Shown here: positions 1-5,832 of the stretch, piece by piece
Numbering within the stretch: position 1 is the stretch's first letter
Layout of the letters: every line of letters starts with the position of its first letter
NCBI RefSeq assembly: GCF_021742065.1
Contig: NZ_JAKKIE010000111.1
Location: forward strand, 1 to 5,889
DNA from: Rhizorhapis sp. SPR117
Lineage (GTDB): Bacteria > Pseudomonadota > Alphaproteobacteria > Sphingomonadales > Sphingomonadaceae
Reading direction: 5' to 3'
Length of the DNA: 5,889 nt
Translations under genes and position numbers: made by a program
Notes under the pieces: model-generated
Seen by the model: the letters and a program-made list of their open reading frames with translations, nothing else
Database searches by the model: none
What the model was told of the DNA's origin: nothing

Positions 1-33
1 CCTTGGATCAAATCTGATGCGCGCGAATGGATG

Positions 34-95
34 GATTCACGTCCTGTTCTATGTGTGATAATGTCCTTTATCATACATAGAACAGGCCGTGAATC
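34..95. repeat. Large inverted repeat with 11-6-11 core
   Basis: The left arm (34-61) and right arm (68-95) are reverse complements at 26 of 28 positions. The mismatches pair 42 with 87 and 55 with 74, the latter a G-T wobble. The centre is the 6-base TGTCCT (62-67). The inner part is an 11-bp half-site ATGTGTGATAA (51-61), the 6-bp spacer, and the 11-bp half-site TTATCATACAT (68-78). This is the geometry of XerCD/dif-type tyrosine recombinase core sites. The arms continue 17 bp further out, more than a simple dif site needs. It lies 81 bp before the antitoxin gene at 177, so it could instead be an operator, and it contains a -10-like GATAAT at 57-62. The repeat is seen directly; the role as a recombination site or operator is inferred. 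Confidence 0.85.
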
Positions 96-163
96 TTGGC
101 GGCTAGATATTGTCACTTATGTCATTTATTGCGTTTGCGGCGTTTATGCCCTACTTCAAGGGA

Positions 164-170
164 GAAGGAG
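164..170 (+). promoter_or_regulatory. Ribosome binding site deciding the start at 177
   Basis: A purine-rich GAAGGAG ends 6 bases before the ATG at 177. This strong Shine-Dalgarno match fixes the start of the HTH antitoxin and argues against the in-frame TTG at 96, which lies at the edge of the inverted repeat and has no comparable site. Confidence 0.7.
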
Positions 171-176
171 TCCACC

Positions 177-641
177 ATGAACATGCTCGCCCATCGCCAG
201 ATGCCGCCGACACCGCAGGATGCCGCCATAGCGCGCCTGTCGGGCCAAGTGCTTGCCGGCTATGCCCGCCAGAAACGCCCGCTGACCTTGCGCGTGCGCG
301 ACGCCGAACAGGAGAAGCCCATAGAGCTGCCCGCCGGCGCGGTGTCGCTGCTCATGGATATTCTCGACGCGATGGCCGCCGGTCGCGGTGTGACGATCAT
401 TCCCGAGGATGCGGAGCTGACCACCGTGCAGGCGGCCGACATGCTCAATGTCTCGCGCACTTTCCTCATCAACCTGCTCGATACCGGCGTGATCCCGCAT
501 CGCAAGGTCGGCACGCACCGCCGTATCCGCATGGAAGATTTGATGGCCTATAAGGCCCGTGACGACCGCGACCGGGAAACCGTGCTGGATGAACTGGCCC
601 GAGAGGCCCAGGAACAGGACATGGGCTATCGTCACGCATGA
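177..641 (+). CDS. Excisionase-type HTH antitoxin (VapB50-like)
   Basis: This 154-residue protein is probably the antitoxin partner of the PIN toxin that follows. It would bind both the toxin and its own promoter. A MerR/excisionase-type winged helix-turn-helix is visible at residues 81-124: LTTVQAADMLNVSRTFL, then a wing with GVIPHRKVGTHRRI and EDLMAYK. The N-terminal 75 residues are of the kind usually found ahead of this HTH in PIN-linked antitoxins. The acidic and basic tail (residues 127-154) is a plausible toxin-binding segment. The start at 177 follows a strong ribosome site. The in-frame extension upstream to 96 is rich in Cys, His and Arg and looks non-coding. The stop overlaps the toxin start as ATGA, so the pair is likely translationally coupled. 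By family knowledge, M. tuberculosis VapB50 was annotated as a possible excisionase. The partner assignment rests on context; the HTH is clear. Confidence 0.85.
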   Translation: MNMLAHRQMPPTPQDAAIARLSGQVLAGYARQKRPLTLRVRDAEQEKPIELPAGAVSLLMDILDAMAAGRGVTIIPEDAELTTVQAADMLNVSRTFLINLLDTGVIPHRKVGTHRRIRMEDLMAYKARDDRDRETVLDELAREAQEQDMGYRHA

Positions 642-1207
642 GCCATTATACGGCGCTGCTGGACGCTAACGTCCTCTATCCCGCCCCCATGCGCGATCTG
701 CTGATGCAGATTGCCGTTACCGATCTGTTCAAGGCCAAATGGAGCGCGGACATTCATCGCGAGTGGATCGAGGCGCTGGTACGCAACGAACCGCACCGCG
801 ACCGAGCCGCGCTGGAACGCACGCGCGACCGCATGGACAGGGCGATGCGCGACGCCCTTGTGACGGGCTATGACACGCTGATTCCATCTCTTGATTTGCC
901 CGATCGCGGCGACCGGCATGTGCTGGCCGCCGCGATCGTCGGGCGCTGCGACGTGATCGTGACGCAGAACCTCAAGCATTTTCCCGCTTCGTCCCTCGCG
1001 TCCTATGGCATCGAGGCGCAGCATCCCGACGAATTTCTGACCAGCCATTTACACCTCGCACCCGGCGTCTTTTGCAGCGCCGTTGCAAAGGTGCGCGCCC
1101 GTCTTACCGCGCCGCCCTATACGGTCGAGGAATATCTCGCGATCCTGACCCGGCAAAGCCTGGTCGGCACCGTCGCCGAGTTGGCGCCATTTTCAAACCT
1201 TCTCTGA
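638..1207 (+). CDS. PIN-domain ribonuclease toxin (PIN_3, VapC50-like)
   Basis: This 189-residue protein is a likely type II toxin, a magnesium-dependent endoribonuclease of the PIN superfamily that would act on cytoplasmic RNA when free of its antitoxin. Acidic residues expected at a PIN active site are present: D9 in LLDANVLYP, E42/E45 in HREWIEAL, and D89/D92 in LPDRGDRHVLAAA. A further aspartate, D105, lies in CDVIVTQNLKHFP. The PIN fold spans about residues 5-130. A C-terminal segment (about 135-189) matches the extra tail of VapC50-type proteins and makes it longer than the usual 130-140-residue VapC. Translation begins at the ATG that overlaps the antitoxin stop by 4 bases, so the two genes form one operon. 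No frameshift or missing catalytic acid is visible, so it appears intact. The family call is firm; the RNA target is unknown. Confidence 0.88.
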   Translation: MSHYTALLDANVLYPAPMRDLLMQIAVTDLFKAKWSADIHREWIEALVRNEPHRDRAALERTRDRMDRAMRDALVTGYDTLIPSLDLPDRGDRHVLAAAIVGRCDVIVTQNLKHFPASSLASYGIEAQHPDEFLTSHLHLAPGVFCSAVAKVRARLTAPPYTVEEYLAILTRQSLVGTVAELAPFSNLL

Positions 1208-1346: not shown

Positions 1347-1620
1347 ATGGAAATCGAGTTCGACCCGGCCAAGGATGAAGCCAATATCGCCAAGCACGGC
1401 GTATCCTTGCGAGCTGCGGAAGATTTCGATTGGGATACGGCGTTTGAGCGCGAAGATGATCGCTTCGATTATGGAGAGGTTCGTTTCGTCGGCATGGGCC
1501 TGATCGGTGATCGCCTGCATGTGCTTTTTCACCGAAGGCTCTCATGACGATGCGGTGCGCGCCATCAGCCTACGCCCAGCAGAGAAGCACGAAGTGAGGT
1601 TCTATCATGGCCAAGTTTGA
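1347..1620 (+). pseudogene. brnT: BrnT toxin gene, frameshifted
   Basis: BrnT is the RelE-fold ribonuclease toxin of the type II BrnT-BrnA system. From ATG 1347 the frame reads MEIEFDPAKDEANIAKHGVS and continues through the typical AEDFDWDTAF, EDDRFDYGE and GLIGDRLHVL, then runs into RRLS and stops at 1545-1547 after 66 codons. BrnT is normally about 90-100 residues. One base further on in phase, from 1528, the missing C-terminus is readable as FTEGSHDDAVRAISLRPA, then EKHEVRFYHGQV, with a stop at 1618-1620. RAISLRPAEKHEVRFY is the usual BrnT ending. The break therefore lies in GTGCTTTTTC at 1521-1530, by a two-base loss or a one-base gain. The toxin product should lack its C-terminal strands and is probably inactive, unless ribosomes shift at the T run or this is a sequencing error. 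The restored frame overlaps brnA by 14 bases, the normal brnTA layout. Confidence 0.85.
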
Positions 1621-1837
1621 TCCGAAGGTTCACGATGACAATCCGCCGATGGATGCGGCGTTCATGGCCGGGATGAAGCCTTCCCGGCGCGGGCGGCCGA
1701 AGTCGGAAGCGCCGAAGGTGGAGGTGAAAATCCGACTGGATGCAAAGACGGTGGAGCATCTGCGCGGCAGCGGCCCCGGATGGCAGACCCGTGTCAATGC
1801 CCTGCTGGGTCAACTCGTTGCAACGGGGCAGCTTTGA
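1607..1837 (+). CDS. brnA: BrnA antitoxin
   Basis: This 76-residue protein is the antitoxin and autorepressor of the BrnT-BrnA pair. It has the BrnA family pattern: an acidic, variable N-terminus (FDPKVHDDNPPMDAAFM), the basic hinge RRGRPKSEAPK at about residues 27-37, then a ribbon-helix-helix segment. That segment starts with strand KVEVKIRLD (37-45) and continues through helix AKTVEHLRGSGPGWQTRVNA to LLGQLVATGQL. The strand gives sequence-specific DNA binding as a dimer, and the N-terminal half is expected to wrap the toxin. The frame is complete and shows no damage, although the adjoining brnT is frameshifted. It may therefore persist as an orphan antitoxin or repressor that could neutralise a BrnT elsewhere in the cell. 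The ATG lies in the 3' end of the original brnT frame, so translation was presumably coupled to the toxin gene. Confidence 0.92.
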   Translation: MAKFDPKVHDDNPPMDAAFMAGMKPSRRGRPKSEAPKVEVKIRLDAKTVEHLRGSGPGWQTRVNALLGQLVATGQL

Positions 1838-1868
1838 TTCGTCTGACTGATCTTGAGGCGGCTTCATA

Positions 1869-2201
1869 ATGCGCGCGGTTCACGACAGCATTGAGGGTCC
1901 GTTCGCGATTGGCGAGGACATGGCGCTCTATGGCACCATCACCGGCAACGCGACCCTGCAGGGCGGCGTGCGGTTCATCCTGCACGGCACGATCATGGGC
2001 GACTTGACGATCGAGCCGAAGGCACGCGCCATCCTCCACGGCACCATAGCGGGGCGCATCTACAACAAGGGCGGGCGGGTCGAGATATTCGGCATGGCCG
2101 GCGCGGTCGAAAATCTCAGCCGCCATGCCGAGACGATCATTGATCCTGGCGCGCATGTCCGGGGTGGACGACCGCGCCGCGAGGGGAGCGCGCGCGCATG
2201 A
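1869..2201 (+). CDS. Bactofilin-like small beta-helix protein
   Basis: This 110-residue protein resembles the polymer-forming (bactofilin, DUF583-type) beta-helix. A glycine-centred motif recurs every 17-18 residues: YGTI at 21-24, HGTI at 39-42, HGTI at 57-60 and FGMA at 74-77. Each is followed by hydrophobic alternation (NATLQGG, GDLTIEPKA, GRIYNKGG, AVENLS) and the series ends in AETIIDPGAHV. This periodicity is what a right-handed beta-helix shows, with about four rungs. No signal peptide or membrane segment is visible, so it should be cytoplasmic. A basic Arg-rich tail (residues 98-109) could bind DNA or membrane. The start has a GAGGCGG site (1855-1861) upstream, and the stop overlaps the next gene as ATGA. 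Its position at the head of an operon ending in a recombinase is unusual for a cytoskeletal protein. The fold is well supported; the function is unknown. Confidence 0.75.
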   Translation: MRAVHDSIEGPFAIGEDMALYGTITGNATLQGGVRFILHGTIMGDLTIEPKARAILHGTIAGRIYNKGGRVEIFGMAGAVENLSRHAETIIDPGAHVRGGRPRREGSARA

Positions 2202-2563
2202 GCGGGATCGCCCACACGGCACCCCCGCAGCGCCGGCCTGTCATTCGCGCCGTCAGCTTCGATGAAGTCGGCGCGGCAATCGGCCGTTTGCTGCCCGTCG
2301 CTCTGCCCGCCACGCGCGCGGCCGAGACCGGCGCATCGCGCAAGGTGGCCGATTTCCTCCTGGCCTGGTGGAACGGCGACGAGTGCGGCCATTTCCCGAT
2401 CCTGCACCTGTGCAACCTCGATGCCGTCATTGCCGAGGATATGCTGACGATCATGGCCTGGCTGGCGCAGGAGCCGACGACCTACGCCGACGCATGGGGC
2501 TACCGCGACGCGATGGGCGGCCTTTGGGTGCGCTATCGCGGCGACCCAGGCGAGGCCGTTTAA
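2198..2563 (+). CDS. DUF7673-like protein
   Basis: This is a 121-residue protein of unknown function. The first 45 residues are Pro/Ala/Arg-rich and look poorly ordered. The core begins at about residue 50 with ADFLLAWWNGDECGHFPILH. It continues through a helix with LDAVIAEDMLTIMAWLAQ (74-91) and ends with YADAWGYRDAMGGLWVRYR (96-114). The AWWN-(x)3-CG-x-F signature and the helix with AEDM resemble, from memory, the DUF7673 family. Such proteins are small, cytoplasmic and common in accessory regions of alphaproteobacteria; none has a role known to me. The ATG overlaps the stop of the beta-helix gene, so the two are probably made together. A 33-base gap separates it from the next gene. The family name is recall only and should be treated as provisional. 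Confidence 0.65.
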   Translation: MSGIAHTAPPQRRPVIRAVSFDEVGAAIGRLLPVALPATRAAETGASRKVADFLLAWWNGDECGHFPILHLCNLDAVIAEDMLTIMAWLAQEPTTYADAWGYRDAMGGLWVRYRGDPGEAV

Positions 2564-2596
2564 ACGATCCCGAGATCCACCGCCGAAGGAAGCGAT

Positions 2597-2968
2597 ATGG
2601 ACGACGACGAGGCTTTCGCTGACAACTACGCCGAGCGCGACCAGGCCAAGGCGCTGCGCGAGCAGGCCCGTGCGGGCGGGCTACGCTTCGAGGCGTATCT
2701 GACCGGCGATCAGGCCGATTGGCTGTTGGAGCGGGTCGAGCGCGGCATGTTCGTTGATCCATCCGAGGCGGTGTTCGCGATCGTCCAGAACTTTCGTGAA
2801 TTGGAGCCGTACCGCGACCTACGCGACGAGTTGCTAGGCCGGGTGCTGGACGCATCGGCGGCCGAACTGGAATCGGTCCGCCCCGCCGACGAGGTGTTTG
2901 ACGAGCTGCGCCGGGAGCTGGCGCAGCCGTGTCCCGAACCGGCGCGCTGGGAGAAGATTGCACGATGA
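2597..2968 (+). CDS. Ribbon-helix-helix (ParD/CopG-like) protein
   Basis: This 123-residue protein looks like a small DNA-binding or antitoxin-type protein. After a charged helix (residues 1-27, rich in D, E, R and K), a strand-helix-helix resembling ParD is visible: strand LRFEAYLT (29-36), helix GDQADWLLERVERG (37-50), then MFVDPSEAVFAIVQNFRELE (51-70). The pattern of a helix, Gly, an aromatic residue and then a capped second helix with S-E-A-V is the ParD signature. The remaining C-terminus (about 71-123) is acidic and helical, longer than in ParD, and would suit protein-protein contact. No ParE-like toxin follows. Instead, the stop overlaps the recombinase start as ATGA. It may thus be an accessory or directionality factor, or a regulator of the recombinase, rather than an antitoxin. 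An AGGA site stands before ATG 2597. The fold is a moderately supported inference; the role is open. Confidence 0.6.
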   Translation: MDDDEAFADNYAERDQAKALREQARAGGLRFEAYLTGDQADWLLERVERGMFVDPSEAVFAIVQNFRELEPYRDLRDELLGRVLDASAAELESVRPADEVFDELRRELAQPCPEPARWEKIAR

Positions 2969-3927
2969 ACCAGCTCGCCCTCCTGCCCTCGCCCACGCTG
3001 GCGCTGCCGGCACTGATTGCGGCGGCCGACGACGCAACGCGGCTGCGCTTCCTTGAGTTCTTTGCCGTCACCATCCGCAACCCGCACACACGCCGCGCCT
3101 ATGCGCGCGCGGCGGGCGACTTCCTGGCCTGGTGTGAGGCGCGCGGCGTCGCCTCCCTTGCCGGCGTGCAGCCGCTCCACGTCGCGGCCTGGATCGAGGC
3201 GCTGGGGCGCGAGCTGGCCGCGCCCAGCGTCAAGCAGCAACTCGCCGGCGTGAAGCATCTGTTCGATTGGCTGGTGACGGGCCATGTCGTGCCAGTGAAC
3301 CCCGCCGCGTCGGTGCGTGGGCCGGCGCATAGCCAGCGGCGCGGCAAGACGCCGGTGCTGGCCCCCGACGAGGCGCGGGCGTTGCTCGACAGGATCGACG
3401 TGACCACCCATGCCGGCCTGCGCGATCGGGCGCTGATCGGGTTGATGGTCTATTCGTTCGCGCGGGTCGGCGCGGCGCTGGCGATGCGGGTGGAGGACGT
3501 GTTCGTGCAGAACCGCCGCCTATGGGTCCGGCTGCACGAAAAGGGCGGCAAGCGCCATGAGATGCCCTGCCACCACAATCTTGAGCATTACCTGGCCGAA
3601 TATCTCGACGGCTGCGCGCTGAGCGACGATCGCAAGGGGCCGTTGTTCCGCACGATCGGACGCAAGACCAAGCGACTAAGCGATACCCCCCTGCCCCAGC
3701 CCAATGCGTTCGCGATGGTGCGCCGGCGCGCGGCGGCGGCCGGGATCGGCACGGCGATCGGCAATCACAGTTTCCGCGCGACCGGGATCACCACCTATTT
3801 GAAGAACGGTGGCACCTTGGAGACGGCCGCGACGATGGCGAACCATAGCTCGACGCGCACCACTCAGCTCTACGATCGCCGGCCCGATGACGTGACGCTG
3901 GACGAAGTGGAGCGCGTGCTGATCTAG
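2965..3927 (+). CDS. Tyrosine site-specific recombinase (integrase/XerCD-like)
   Basis: This 320-residue enzyme cuts and rejoins DNA at specific sites through a covalent phosphotyrosine intermediate. The N-terminal SAM-like arm-binding/core-binding domain spans about residues 24-115 (TRRAYARAAGDFLAWC, SVKQQLAGVKHLFDWLV). The catalytic domain begins near 129. All catalytic residues are present: R167 in YSFARVGA, K193 in HEKGGK, H268 and R271 in HSFRATGI, H294 in MANHSSTRTT, and nucleophile Y303 in QLYDRR. The length fits an unadorned Xer or TnpI-type recombinase, without the long N-terminal domain of phage or ICE integrases. The start at 2965 overlaps the RHH gene stop and has GGGAG (2949-2953) upstream. 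An in-frame ATG at 2929 lies inside the preceding gene and is less likely. As the last gene of the operon, it may act on the palindrome at 34-95, resolve cointegrates, or move the module. Function class is certain; substrate is not. Confidence 0.95.
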   Translation: MNQLALLPSPTLALPALIAAADDATRLRFLEFFAVTIRNPHTRRAYARAAGDFLAWCEARGVASLAGVQPLHVAAWIEALGRELAAPSVKQQLAGVKHLFDWLVTGHVVPVNPAASVRGPAHSQRRGKTPVLAPDEARALLDRIDVTTHAGLRDRALIGLMVYSFARVGAALAMRVEDVFVQNRRLWVRLHEKGGKRHEMPCHHNLEHYLAEYLDGCALSDDRKGPLFRTIGRKTKRLSDTPLPQPNAFAMVRRRAAAAGIGTAIGNHSFRATGITTYLKNGGTLETAATMANHSSTRTTQLYDRRPDDVTLDEVERVLI

Positions 3928-3930
3928 CGT

Positions 3931-3950
3931 CTCGAAATTCGAGGGTTTTT
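3931..3950 (+). terminator. Weak Rho-independent terminator candidate
   Basis: CTCGA, loop AAT, TCGAG (3931-3943) is followed by GG and five T (3946-3950), 3 bases after the recombinase stop. The stem is only 5 bp with a short loop, so termination would be weak. The position fits the end of the operon. Confidence 0.35.
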
Positions 3951-4092
3951 CCTGGAAGTCGGCAAGGATGACGGGCTGCGCCTCTCGACCTTCTCCCGCT
4001 TCAATTTCAACAGCGGAAAGGGGAGCTTGAACGCCGATCTGTTCTATCCGCTGCCACGATTGTTGGGCGGGGGACCCGATTTTTATCTCTTT
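3951..4092. other. Unassigned DNA between recombinase and IS66 remnant
   Basis: No gene can be supported here. The - strand frame of the IS66 tnpB remnant runs on openly through this stretch (ERLPKEIKIG and beyond), but it no longer resembles tnpB, and I could not match any frame to IS66 tnpC. It may be a rearranged or degraded part of the same element, or foreign flank. No terminal repeat was seen. Confidence 0.4.
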
Positions 4093-4296
4093 GGGCAGTC
4101 TTTCATCGGCTATGGTGAGCATCGTCATCTGGGCTGCCGACAGGCGGAGCGCGACCTCATGAGCACGGGGCCACATGAACTTTCTGCGCTCGAGACGCTT
4201 CGCATACACGCATAGCCCAGACCCGTCCCAGACTAGGGCCTTCAACCTGTCGCCCCTTTTCCCGCAGAACAGGAAAACCGCCCCCGAGAATGAATC
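4093..4296 (-). pseudogene. tnpB: IS66-family accessory protein TnpB, fragment
   Basis: TnpB is one of two small accessory proteins required by IS66-type transposons. On the - strand, reading from 4296 to 4093, the central and C-terminal part of TnpB is recognisable. It reads DSFSGAVFLFCGKRGDRLKA, then LVWDGSGLCVYAKRLERRKF and MWPRAHEVALRLSAAQMTML. This matches the family core of FSG-V-F-F-R-R-R-D-K-V-WDG-G-L-KRLE-G-F-W and AAQ-LL. The normal 110-120-residue protein should have about 35 more residues in front. These are replaced abruptly near 4296-4300 by the serine recombinase remnant on the other strand. The usual ending (GIDW followed by a proline-rich tail) is also absent after TML. No tnpA or tnpC is in the window. 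It is therefore a dead IS66 piece. The identification is firm for about 60 residues; the ends are approximate. Confidence 0.8.
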
Positions 4297-4299
4297 AAG

Positions 4300-4407
4300 C
4301 TGGTCGAGGCAAGCATCTCGCCAACAGAGGCGGCAAAGCAGCTCGGCATCGGCTGATCGACCATCTATAGAGAAATGCGCCGCCTCGGCGTGGAAAGGCC
4401 TGTCTGA
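4300..4407 (+). pseudogene. Serine recombinase (resolvase) C-terminal remnant
   Basis: On the + strand, 4300-4353 reads LVEASISPTEAAKQLGIG. After a TGA stop at 4354-4356 it continues as STIYREMRRLGVERPV with a stop at 4405-4407. This is the C-terminal HTH of resolvase/invertase-type recombinases, where the usual reading is GIGRSTIY or GIGRATVYR. The TGA sits exactly where Arg is expected, consistent with a single CGA to TGA change. The catalytic domain and the rest of the gene are missing upstream, where IS66 DNA begins within a few bases, and another in-frame TGA lies at 4291-4293. It cannot make a recombinase. It ends immediately before the start codon of the gene at 4408, implying that the full gene once lay in tandem with it. 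Confidence 0.65.
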
Positions 4408-5781
4408 ATGTCCAGACCAAAATCTGCCCATGATCTTTCGGGCCTGATGAAATATGTGGATCGTGAGCCCTGGGATGAAGCGATGGCCGAAATGCTGTCC
4501 GCACATCTGGAACCGGCGTGCGAGGCAACGGGACTGGAGCCCGACGCCATATTCGAAATCATCGGCGATCACTGGCAAGGGTCGCTATGGGGCTGCGCCT
4601 TTGAAGATCTGCTCACGCAGGAACTGGAACCGGACGGTGGCAATCTGGTCGATGACTATCTCAAGCGGCGGGGCTGGAACGAAAAGGCGCCGAACAAGGC
4701 CTATATGCGCGCACTGCGCGATACGGTCATGTCGCTCTATGAGGTGAGCGAGGTTCTGCCCGGCCAGTCGATGACCTTGCGCGATCTGCTGCGCGACGTT
4801 GCCCCGGTGACGGTGCGGGAACACGGTGCAACCCAGACCCTCGTCAACTGGGACAAGATCGCCGCAAGGATTGTTGACGTGAACGGTCGCCACGGCATTT
4901 CCGGAGCGCTGCTGCCGTTCAGTGCTGAAGGTGCCGCACGCGTAATCGACGCATTTTCCCGACTTTCCGACGATGTTCAGGACACTGCCGGATTGCCCCC
5001 CCTCGACCGGGACGCTCTCCTGCGGGCATCGGGACCGATGTTCACGAATATGTGGCTGCTCGATTGCCTGGGCAAGGCGATGCCCGGCAGCACTCCGGAT
5101 ATGATCAACGCGGACGGCGATGATCTCGTATTCCACCGAATCATTTTCCCTCTGGCAAAGGGCGTGATCGGCAAGAGCGTGGCCAGAAGGCTGGACGCAG
5201 CCCCCTGGCTTGAGCCTGCCAGCGACAGTTTCTGGAACTGGCTGGCTCCAGTCAAAAAGGGCGGGAAGTCCCAATCAAGCAAAGGCAAGCAGGCCTTCGT
5301 CACAACGATGGAAGACGACACGCCGGTTTTCGCCAATGTGGAACTGACAGGCCGCAAGCTGATCGTCGAGGTGAACAGCGCCGCCCGTGCGGAACAAGCG
5401 ATTATACAGATACGCGAATGGCTCGGTGATTCCGTCAGTGCTCCCATGACTGAAATTCGGACACTGGCCCAGATCATGGCCGATGATGCAGCACGCGCCC
5501 CGCAGGACGAGACGCTGGATATACCGCCACACGAAATGGAGCGCATCGTTCACGACATGCTGACCCGTGAATATACGAAAACGCTCGATGAGCCGGTTCC
5601 TGCCCTCGGCCACAAGACTCCGCGTGCTCTAGCCCGCACAAAGGCCGGACGGACGAAAGTGGCCGACTGGCTCAAATATATTGAAAACGGCGCGGCAAAA
5701 TCCGACGCTGCCGATCCGATGGGCACCTATGACTTCACATGGATGTGGGCAGAGCTGGGGCTCAGCGACCTCCGGCGGTAA
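4408..5781 (+). CDS. Uncharacterised 457-residue protein
   Basis: I do not recognise a named family. The protein is acidic, without a signal peptide or clear membrane segment, and so is probably cytoplasmic. The N-terminal third contains helical segments with YVDREPWDEAMAEMLSAHLE and the LTQELEPDGGNLVDDYLKRR stretch. The middle (about residues 150-270) is a helical region with SAEGAARVIDAFSRL and a FPLAKGVIGKSVARRLD element. A low-complexity Lys/Ser linker (KKGGKSQSSKGKQ, about 283-295) precedes a beta-rich part (FVTTMEDDTPVFANVELTGR). The last 64 residues (394-457) form a distinctive tail, with DEPVPALGHKTPRALARTKA, then KVADWLKYIENG and finally YDFTWMWAELGL. I have seen similar LG-x-TPR-x-A, GR-x-x-x-x-WLK-x-x-E and YDF-x-x-W-x-x-LGL endings in poorly characterised accessory proteins, some with SEC-C motifs, but no SEC-C cysteines are present here. 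The ATG directly follows a TGA and has GGAAAGG (4391-4397) as ribosome site; Met-14 at 4447 is an alternative start. Confidence 0.8.
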   Translation: MSRPKSAHDLSGLMKYVDREPWDEAMAEMLSAHLEPACEATGLEPDAIFEIIGDHWQGSLWGCAFEDLLTQELEPDGGNLVDDYLKRRGWNEKAPNKAYMRALRDTVMSLYEVSEVLPGQSMTLRDLLRDVAPVTVREHGATQTLVNWDKIAARIVDVNGRHGISGALLPFSAEGAARVIDAFSRLSDDVQDTAGLPPLDRDALLRASGPMFTNMWLLDCLGKAMPGSTPDMINADGDDLVFHRIIFPLAKGVIGKSVARRLDAAPWLEPASDSFWNWLAPVKKGGKSQSSKGKQAFVTTMEDDTPVFANVELTGRKLIVEVNSAARAEQAIIQIREWLGDSVSAPMTEIRTLAQIMADDAARAPQDETLDIPPHEMERIVHDMLTREYTKTLDEPVPALGHKTPRALARTKAGRTKVADWLKYIENGAAKSDAADPMGTYDFTWMWAELGLSDLRR

Positions 5782-5832
5782 CGGCAATCACGCCATTCTT
5801 GATATGTTCTCGCTTAGACCCAATGACTGCCG

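Follow-up and report, generated by a model that had tools for sequence, protein, structure and literature searches.

The 5,889-nt contig NZ_JAKKIE010000111.1 of the sphingomonad Rhizorhapis sp. SPR117 (hereafter the window, meaning this whole stretch) carries a compact cluster of four genes that encode a bactofilin-like protein (BACT), a DUF7673 protein, a ribbon-helix-helix protein (RHH) and a tyrosine recombinase (INT), and near its start an inverted repeat that is a candidate recombination site (Table 1). The tight packing of the four genes, pointed out in an earlier sequence-only reading, was borne out, all four being real genes in the arrangement then described. It is the inverted repeat, which that reading left unmentioned for this cluster, that explains most about INT, and, judging from sequence comparison, we put at roughly 0.78 the probability that site and INT constitute a self-contained lox/dif-like recombinase module, serving to resolve plasmid multimers as well as to fuse and shuffle plasmids.

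Table 1. Features of the window, with the evidence behind each assignment
Feature	Position	Strand	Basis or remark
Candidate recombination site, inverted repeat	34..95	+	blast against relatives, repeat analysis
HTH_17/excisionase-like DNA-binding protein, likely antitoxin of the PIN gene	177..641	+	profile searches
PIN-domain protein, likely toxin	638..1207	+	RSP_2648-like, 137 bits, under the NCBIfam cut-off of 170
BrnT-like toxin, incomplete	1347..1547	+	matches profile positions 1-58 of 77
BrnA antitoxin	1607..1837	+	profile search
BACT, 110-aa beta-solenoid, bactofilin-like fold	1869..2201	+	profile and structure model
DUF7673 protein, 121 aa, all-helical model	2198..2563	+	profile and structure model
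RHH, CopG/PaaA2-like protein, 123 aa	2597..2968	+	4-base overlap with INT
INT, XerC/D-like tyrosine recombinase, 320 aa	2965..3927	+	profile and PDB sequence searches
IS66 TnpB gene remnant, between INT and the 457-aa gene	4114-4302	-	profile search
457-aa gene, weak Xre/MbcA/ParS C-terminal match	4408-5781		profile search

The repeat has 28-nt arms that are 93% complementary, and its core, TGATA-ATGTCCTT-TATC at 56-72, encloses an 8-bp spacer (61-68), or one of 6 bp (62-67) if the A/T ends are counted as arm. INT possesses R167, K193, H268, R271, H294 and Y303, presumably filling the roles of the R-K-H-R-H/W-Y catalytic set, and no substitution of these residues was found in 80 aligned sequences (0-3 gaps). 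Both simple marks of a tyrosine recombinase and its core site are present, namely the catalytic set and, near the gene, a pair of inverted arms flanking an asymmetric spacer of 6-8 bp; the core lies 2,846 bp from the INT frame, the median across INT loci with a site being 738 bp. NCBIfam and PDB sequence searches placed INT nearest to XerC/XerD/XerA, though under their NCBIfam cut-offs, and it does not pass as an integron integrase, scoring 36.4 bits on TIGR02249 against a cut-off of 265.

INT loci (numbered L001 onward) were collected from the best 79 of 176 relatives by INT similarity plus plasmid records, some later ones via the site, and the counts describe INT neighbourhoods with near-duplicates included. 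Blast of the window against relatives gave ~45-bp matches upstream of the operon in many loci, and the site was present in 72 of the 93 records scanned first, which comprised the window and 92 loci, all obtained without using the site. Among the loci fetched regardless of the site, 74 of 86 had it within 4 kb upstream of INT, with the spacer directed toward INT in 65 of the 74; a larger tally of 90 of 102 INT loci included 16 fetched through the site, which the former figure excludes. After identical INT frames were collapsed, the site was upstream in 59 of 71. A scan of 124 loci (1.27 Mb; 23 fetched through the site) at up to two mismatches returned 102 matches, and none for the reversed pattern or for any of four shuffles. 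TGATAA and TTTATC were kept in all of the 78 distinct sites picked at this threshold, and the spacer was exact in 71, while the canonical halves differ from each other, the left consensus having GATTC.C and CC..TCTATATA and the right one not. As far as comparison of loci shows, the site and the INT gene travel together.

The exact 17-mer of the core was present in 11 of 396 Sphingomonadales genomes, one copy each, against none for the control, and INT lay within the 3-kb piece around 10 of the 11 matches. Because 8 of the 11 contigs were, judged by their lengths, already in the INT set, this pattern search is not independent of that set; the three new contigs (L108, L110 and L111) all carry INT. 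The exception, L115, is on a 91,063-bp contig that, judged by its length, also holds, ~42 kb off, L052, an INT locus without a nearby site. Among 398 Pseudomonadota genomes three had the 17-mer, one already known, one (L149) with INT and one without. In PLSDB a 32-mer consensus matched 127 records, including Sphingobium, Rhizobium, Pseudomonas, Agrobacterium and Paraburkholderia, at a loose E≤10 at which some will be chance. A single site was found in each of the whole plasmids scanned at up to two mismatches, namely pUT1 (31.8 kb), L096 (20 kb), pSF3 and pSF4; a 50-kb piece of R. dicambivorans p4 (L153) has two in the same orientation, at 16039 and 47087, within a duplicated and partly degraded backbone, which is a dimeric plasmid or else a duplication introduced in assembly.

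A crossover by INT at the spacer would be expected to reassort left and right flanks at that point and nowhere else. We compared 200-bp flanks pairwise and called a pair one-sided when, over 60 bp, one flank was ≥85% identical and the opposite flank <60%. The 71 distinct sites (92 before exact duplicates were removed) yielded 27 one-sided and no two-sided pairs, and 77 distinct sites, with more loci, yielded 33 and one, respectively. At ten control offsets (-900, -600, -400, -250, -150, 150, 250, 400, 600 and 900) the one-sided pairs numbered 0, 0, 0, 1, 0, 0, 1, 2, 0 and 0, and the two-sided ones 2, 2, 2, 2, 11, 18, 2, 2, 6 and 7. These figures are to be read as counts rather than probabilities, since the pairs do not represent independent events.

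Fourteen pairs, namely 13 of the 27 one-sided ones and pSF3/pSF4, were inspected in detail. The shared side was identical across the full 2,000 bp compared in nine; identity ran for 680 bp in L039/L081 (to a contig end), 817 bp in L016/L087 and 238 bp in L010/L080, and in L010/L041 (only ~100 bp) and L024/L044 it was 92-99% near the site. The non-shared side broke 4-13 bp from the spacer and had 26-39% identity beyond 100 bp. Within one strain, bases 1-6232 of pSF3 equal 5606-11837 of pSF4 (6,232 bp, zero mismatches) and the identity stops with the core, past which the two are different replicons, each having two divergent INT operons around one site. The junction of pPDL2 (L087) equals that of pSF3 over 56 bp of both half-sites. 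Two divergent INT genes with a single site between them, as in pPDL2, were also seen in L004, L006, L020 and L104. Comparison of these natural loci shows that flanking DNA has been exchanged at the core repeatedly in nature; crossover inside the spacer is indicated by natural junctions only, which place the break in the shared core, not to the base.

In the mechanism that we propose, INT would be a single-enzyme Xer/Cre-like tyrosine recombinase acting at its own short site, pairing two sites and exchanging strands inside the spacer as the crossover region. With two direct sites it would convert plasmid dimers into monomers, a predicted function that the single site in each of the four whole plasmids fits, and more rarely it may fuse different plasmids that share the same spacer. 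The site is also close before the first gene in many relatives, the first called frame starting 30-60 bp past the core start in 40 of 66 loci (range 21-230, on crude frame calls), and it may be part of the operon leader, where bound INT or RHH would restrain expression; the best -35-like hexamer near the site averaged 3.2 matches versus 2.7 in shuffled flanks, too weak to claim a promoter element. The odds given to the recombinase module were left unchanged after the recount, because the flank test carries the case.

Several observations weigh against this module. Twelve of the 86 INT loci (L001, L015, L033, L042, L043, L048-L050, L052, L055, L059 and L077) have no upstream site, two of them, L033 and L055, being cut within 1 kb. 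A looser palindrome search upstream of INT, covering these 12 and four distant plasmid loci (L119-L122), listed a single TGATA-type palindrome, a variant site near 1150 in L121, and in L119, near 2850, where INT starts, a palindrome whose centre is related; a GATA..TATC match in L059 was rejected as not a site by the scan. L119 and L121 are distant INT relatives (52-54% identity), in which site and enzyme may have co-diverged. The core also occurs apart from the gene, with no INT within 8 kb in L117, the 16-kb piece around the L115 core (position 8001), none in 18 kb of L150/L151, and none in the piece fetched for 23 of 24 viral contigs that contain the exact 17-mer. The viral matches were not used, as most look like chance and their outer arms are mostly absent (scores of at most 6 of 14 in 20 of the 24, versus 10 of 70 distinct non-viral sites), and in very large collections some occurrences of the bare 17-mer are to be expected by chance. 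The scan of window 1-400 returned no sigma-70 promoter. Half-type calls, made with a weight matrix trained on 71 canonical sites with the window left out, were correct in only 116 of 142 leave-one-out tests; they label the window's site left:left (halves of 10.3 and 10.5 bits), a call shared by L073 with one half weak at 2.1, and the window's core, being of this hybrid type, is 1.8 kb before BACT.

By the same calls, right:right sites are found in pPDL2/pSF3, pSF4, L004, L006 and L020, and L002 and its kin, in which the spacer is turned with respect to the operon, are right:left; L104, with its divergent INT genes, was not called right:right. Recombination of a canonical site with a turned one would generate one left:left and one right:right junction. 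We infer that the window's site is the product of such an event between sites whose spacers were oppositely oriented relative to their operons, and the reciprocal of the right:right sites in pPDL2, pSF3 and pSF4.

One further point on the opposing side comes from pPDL2 itself, for which a 2012 study placed integration at an attP that matches a tRNA and lies at the int1 3′ end (PMC3516476; this and the other papers compared here are cited from the portions of their text consulted). There Pandeeti et al. described in Sphingobium fuliginis an 'integration module' of pPDL2, CIP-I/CIP-II (copG-int-pgm), and copG-int(-pgm) units in pPDL2, pUT1, pCHQ1 and pSWIT01, so that the earlier statement that no system of this composition had been described is only partly right. 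The module and the window are alike in recombinase family, RHH family and the overlap of copG with int, which in the window is the ATGA at 2965-2968 (PMC3516476). They differ behind int, where pPDL2 has pgm (histidine phosphatase) and the window the IS66 TnpB remnant and the 457-aa gene instead. The pPDL2 authors assigned attP to the int1 3′ end and predicted CopG sites upstream of copG (PMC3516476). Neither a lox-like core nor flank exchange nor BACT/DUF7673 occurs in the PMC3516476 text examined.

Following that study, the module could be an integrative mobilisable element whose INT, a phage-type integrase, inserts the plasmid at a tRNA gene via an attP near the int 3′ end, and a cointegrate of pPDL2-K with a plasmid carrying a cloned seryl-tRNA 3′ end was indeed reported, with its junctions sequenced (PMC3516476). 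The pPDL2 att sites were, however, picked from tRNA matches of at least 10 bp (PMC3516476), and among five INT loci compared L001 alone stays similar to the window beyond the INT stop (to 3948), unlike L080, L081, L082 and L087. Scans of the window found neither tRNA genes nor Rfam families, and the natural junctions fall at the upstream core, which makes this element improbable. The core is the likely junction for the joining in pPDL2 as well, judging from the sequences, which puts the published att assignment in question.

Still less probable is that the inverted repeat is only an operator for RHH/CopG and that plasmids recombine there by other means. Its position 5′ of the operon and the CopG-binding sites predicted upstream of copG by the pPDL2 authors (PMC3516476) would suit an operator, but the core is kept in 40 of 48 INT loci without an RHH match, L021, L022, L030, L065, L084 and L111 have no frame of at least 60 aa between core and INT, and one-sided flank sharing peaks at the core.

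For the recombinase module, the genes between site and INT look like a cargo that varies in part. Around 101 INT genes, RHH was found with 43, DUF7673 with 25 and BACT with 12; the partner sets were none (57), RHH and DUF7673 (21), RHH only (11), RHH and BACT (8), all three (3; the window, L001 and L011), and DUF7673 and BACT without RHH (1; L009). A gene-neighbourhood comparison of the kind proposed by the sequence-only reading thus upholds a compact cluster of conserved order, with RHH adjoining INT, but not a fixed four-protein machine. The RHH frame, where present, overlaps the INT frame or lies at most 61 bp from it, and the gene before RHH is BACT in pUT1 (L081) and L082 and DUF7673 in pDE4 (L080). 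Among plasmid records, 178 had DUF7673-like sequences, 65 RHH and 33 BACT. The site-INT interval (2.5 kb where there was no site) comprised 166 frames in 71 clusters, 53 of them single-locus, on crude calls of which some are false or chimeric. When 20 chosen slot proteins were scanned, 11 matched Pfam at E≤0.01, one of these (DUF6480) under its cut-off; the matches were to the VCH_CASS14 integron-cassette protein (three loci), TIR (CAP12), GNAT, UPF0175, PIN, DUF2513, DUF6650 and Ymh. By this comparison the interval is a slot whose small genes vary, with BACT and DUF7673 best seen as two of its occupants and RHH as the commonest one in sphingomonads, and the odd composition of the operon may best be seen as mostly slot variability. 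To refill the slot, it would be enough for crossing over at the site to be combined with homologous exchange within int.

Two S. yanoikuyae plasmids (L085 and L086) match window 1468-2226 and 4096-5817 at 92-99% and are without 2227-4095, a stretch that takes in the greater part of DUF7673 and the whole of RHH and INT; the 12.3 kb read contained no site at up to two mismatches. That the first 29 bases of DUF7673 are still there favours loss over gain.

In the sequence-only reading, BACT, DUF7673 and RHH might be accessory factors, whether as partners in a complex with INT, as a means of positioning the plasmid or as controls on the recombinase. In favour of this suggestion stand the resemblance of BACT to a polymer-forming protein, the ability of bactofilins to work alongside partition systems, the tight gene overlaps and the frequent RHH-INT adjacency. 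It is nevertheless unlikely, given how few INT genes have BACT or DUF7673 beside them, the unrelated proteins that fill the slot elsewhere, and p-C-Sy, in which BACT and the first 29 bases of DUF7673 are kept and the rest of the operon is absent. BACT scored 21.8 bits on the Pfam bactofilin family PF04519, missing the gathering cut-off of 27.9, and the best alignment of its confident structure model was to a solved bactofilin, with other beta-helices close behind; by its model it passes as a bactofilin-type beta-helix. One 18-residue stretch is absent from the L001 BACT with the frame kept, as expected for a solenoid. No function is proposed for DUF7673, because its model (pLDDT 80.6) had no convincing PDB neighbour (best E 0.92); the word was not found in the open-licence papers searched. 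RHH would be the likeliest regulator in the operon. An identical RHH protein occurs on five contigs, the longest of 5.92 Mb, and one copy may therefore be chromosomal. PADLOC gave no match for any of the four operon proteins.

Among known systems, the Cre/loxP-type pairs Nigri/nox and Panto/pox share with this module the 13+8+13 geometry, a site beside the gene and, for Nigri, a plasmid source, and differ in that INT is nearest to XerC/XerD/XerA, the site sequence is another and an RHH gene adjoins (PMC4957104). Closest in outcome, by analogy, would be the Acinetobacter pdif/dif modules, with short tyrosine-recombinase sites, toxin-antitoxin cargo, two-backbone cointegrates and a role of the spacer; those depend on host XerC/D and have several sites per plasmid, whereas here the enzyme is plasmid-encoded and the four whole plasmids have one site each (PMC13141974, PMC5790767). 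In Rhizobium etli IntA/attA, too, a tyrosine recombinase encoded on a plasmid joins plasmids at a short palindrome, and the inner arm GATAA/TTATC is in common, but attA has a 7-bp centre against the 8-bp spacer here (PMC4928290). IntA was not retained as the closest functional precedent: the p42a integrase at 1339-2487, taken to be IntA, has no significant similarity to INT (E 0.46), and attA was not found in p42a bases 1-30000. The 37-bp stability element of pYAN-2 is another thing, its authors having seen dimers in all three plasmids tested, according to the part of their report consulted. In the literature on recombinases, dimer resolution and sphingomonads, judged from titles and abstract starts, nothing besides PMC3516476 describes this module, and six strings of the site occur in no paper among the open-licence papers searched.

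Two toxin-antitoxin-like pairs separate site and operon in the window. The HTH_17 and PIN genes (177-1207) lie between the two, share a 4-base overlap and are probably a toxin-antitoxin pair; the BrnT frame ends early, beside the BrnA antitoxin gene. Downstream, window 4294-5817 with the 457-aa gene is conserved as one block in many sphingomonad plasmids (80-87%) and in two S. yanoikuyae plasmids (97%), and a gene of the recombinase family often adjoins it.

A bolder picture, which we offer tentatively, is that of a plasmid-borne, self-sufficient counterpart of pdif, in which a near-invariant lox-like site would serve both as crossover and as operon leader, the slot would be refilled with unrelated stability, defence and integron-cassette-type genes, and opposite spacers would give left:left and right:right junctions, with unrelated replicons fused and re-sorted across Pseudomonadota and perhaps beyond. 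What the window holds is a real and widespread plasmid recombination module, and for its recombinase, widespread on plasmids and annotated only as 'integrase', there is now a short site that can be tested. Should the module prove active beyond its own host, a further lox-type tool would be available. The two-replicon structure of pesticide-degradation plasmids such as pPDL2 could be explained by it, and it suggests how the mosaic plasmids of sphingomonads may have arisen.

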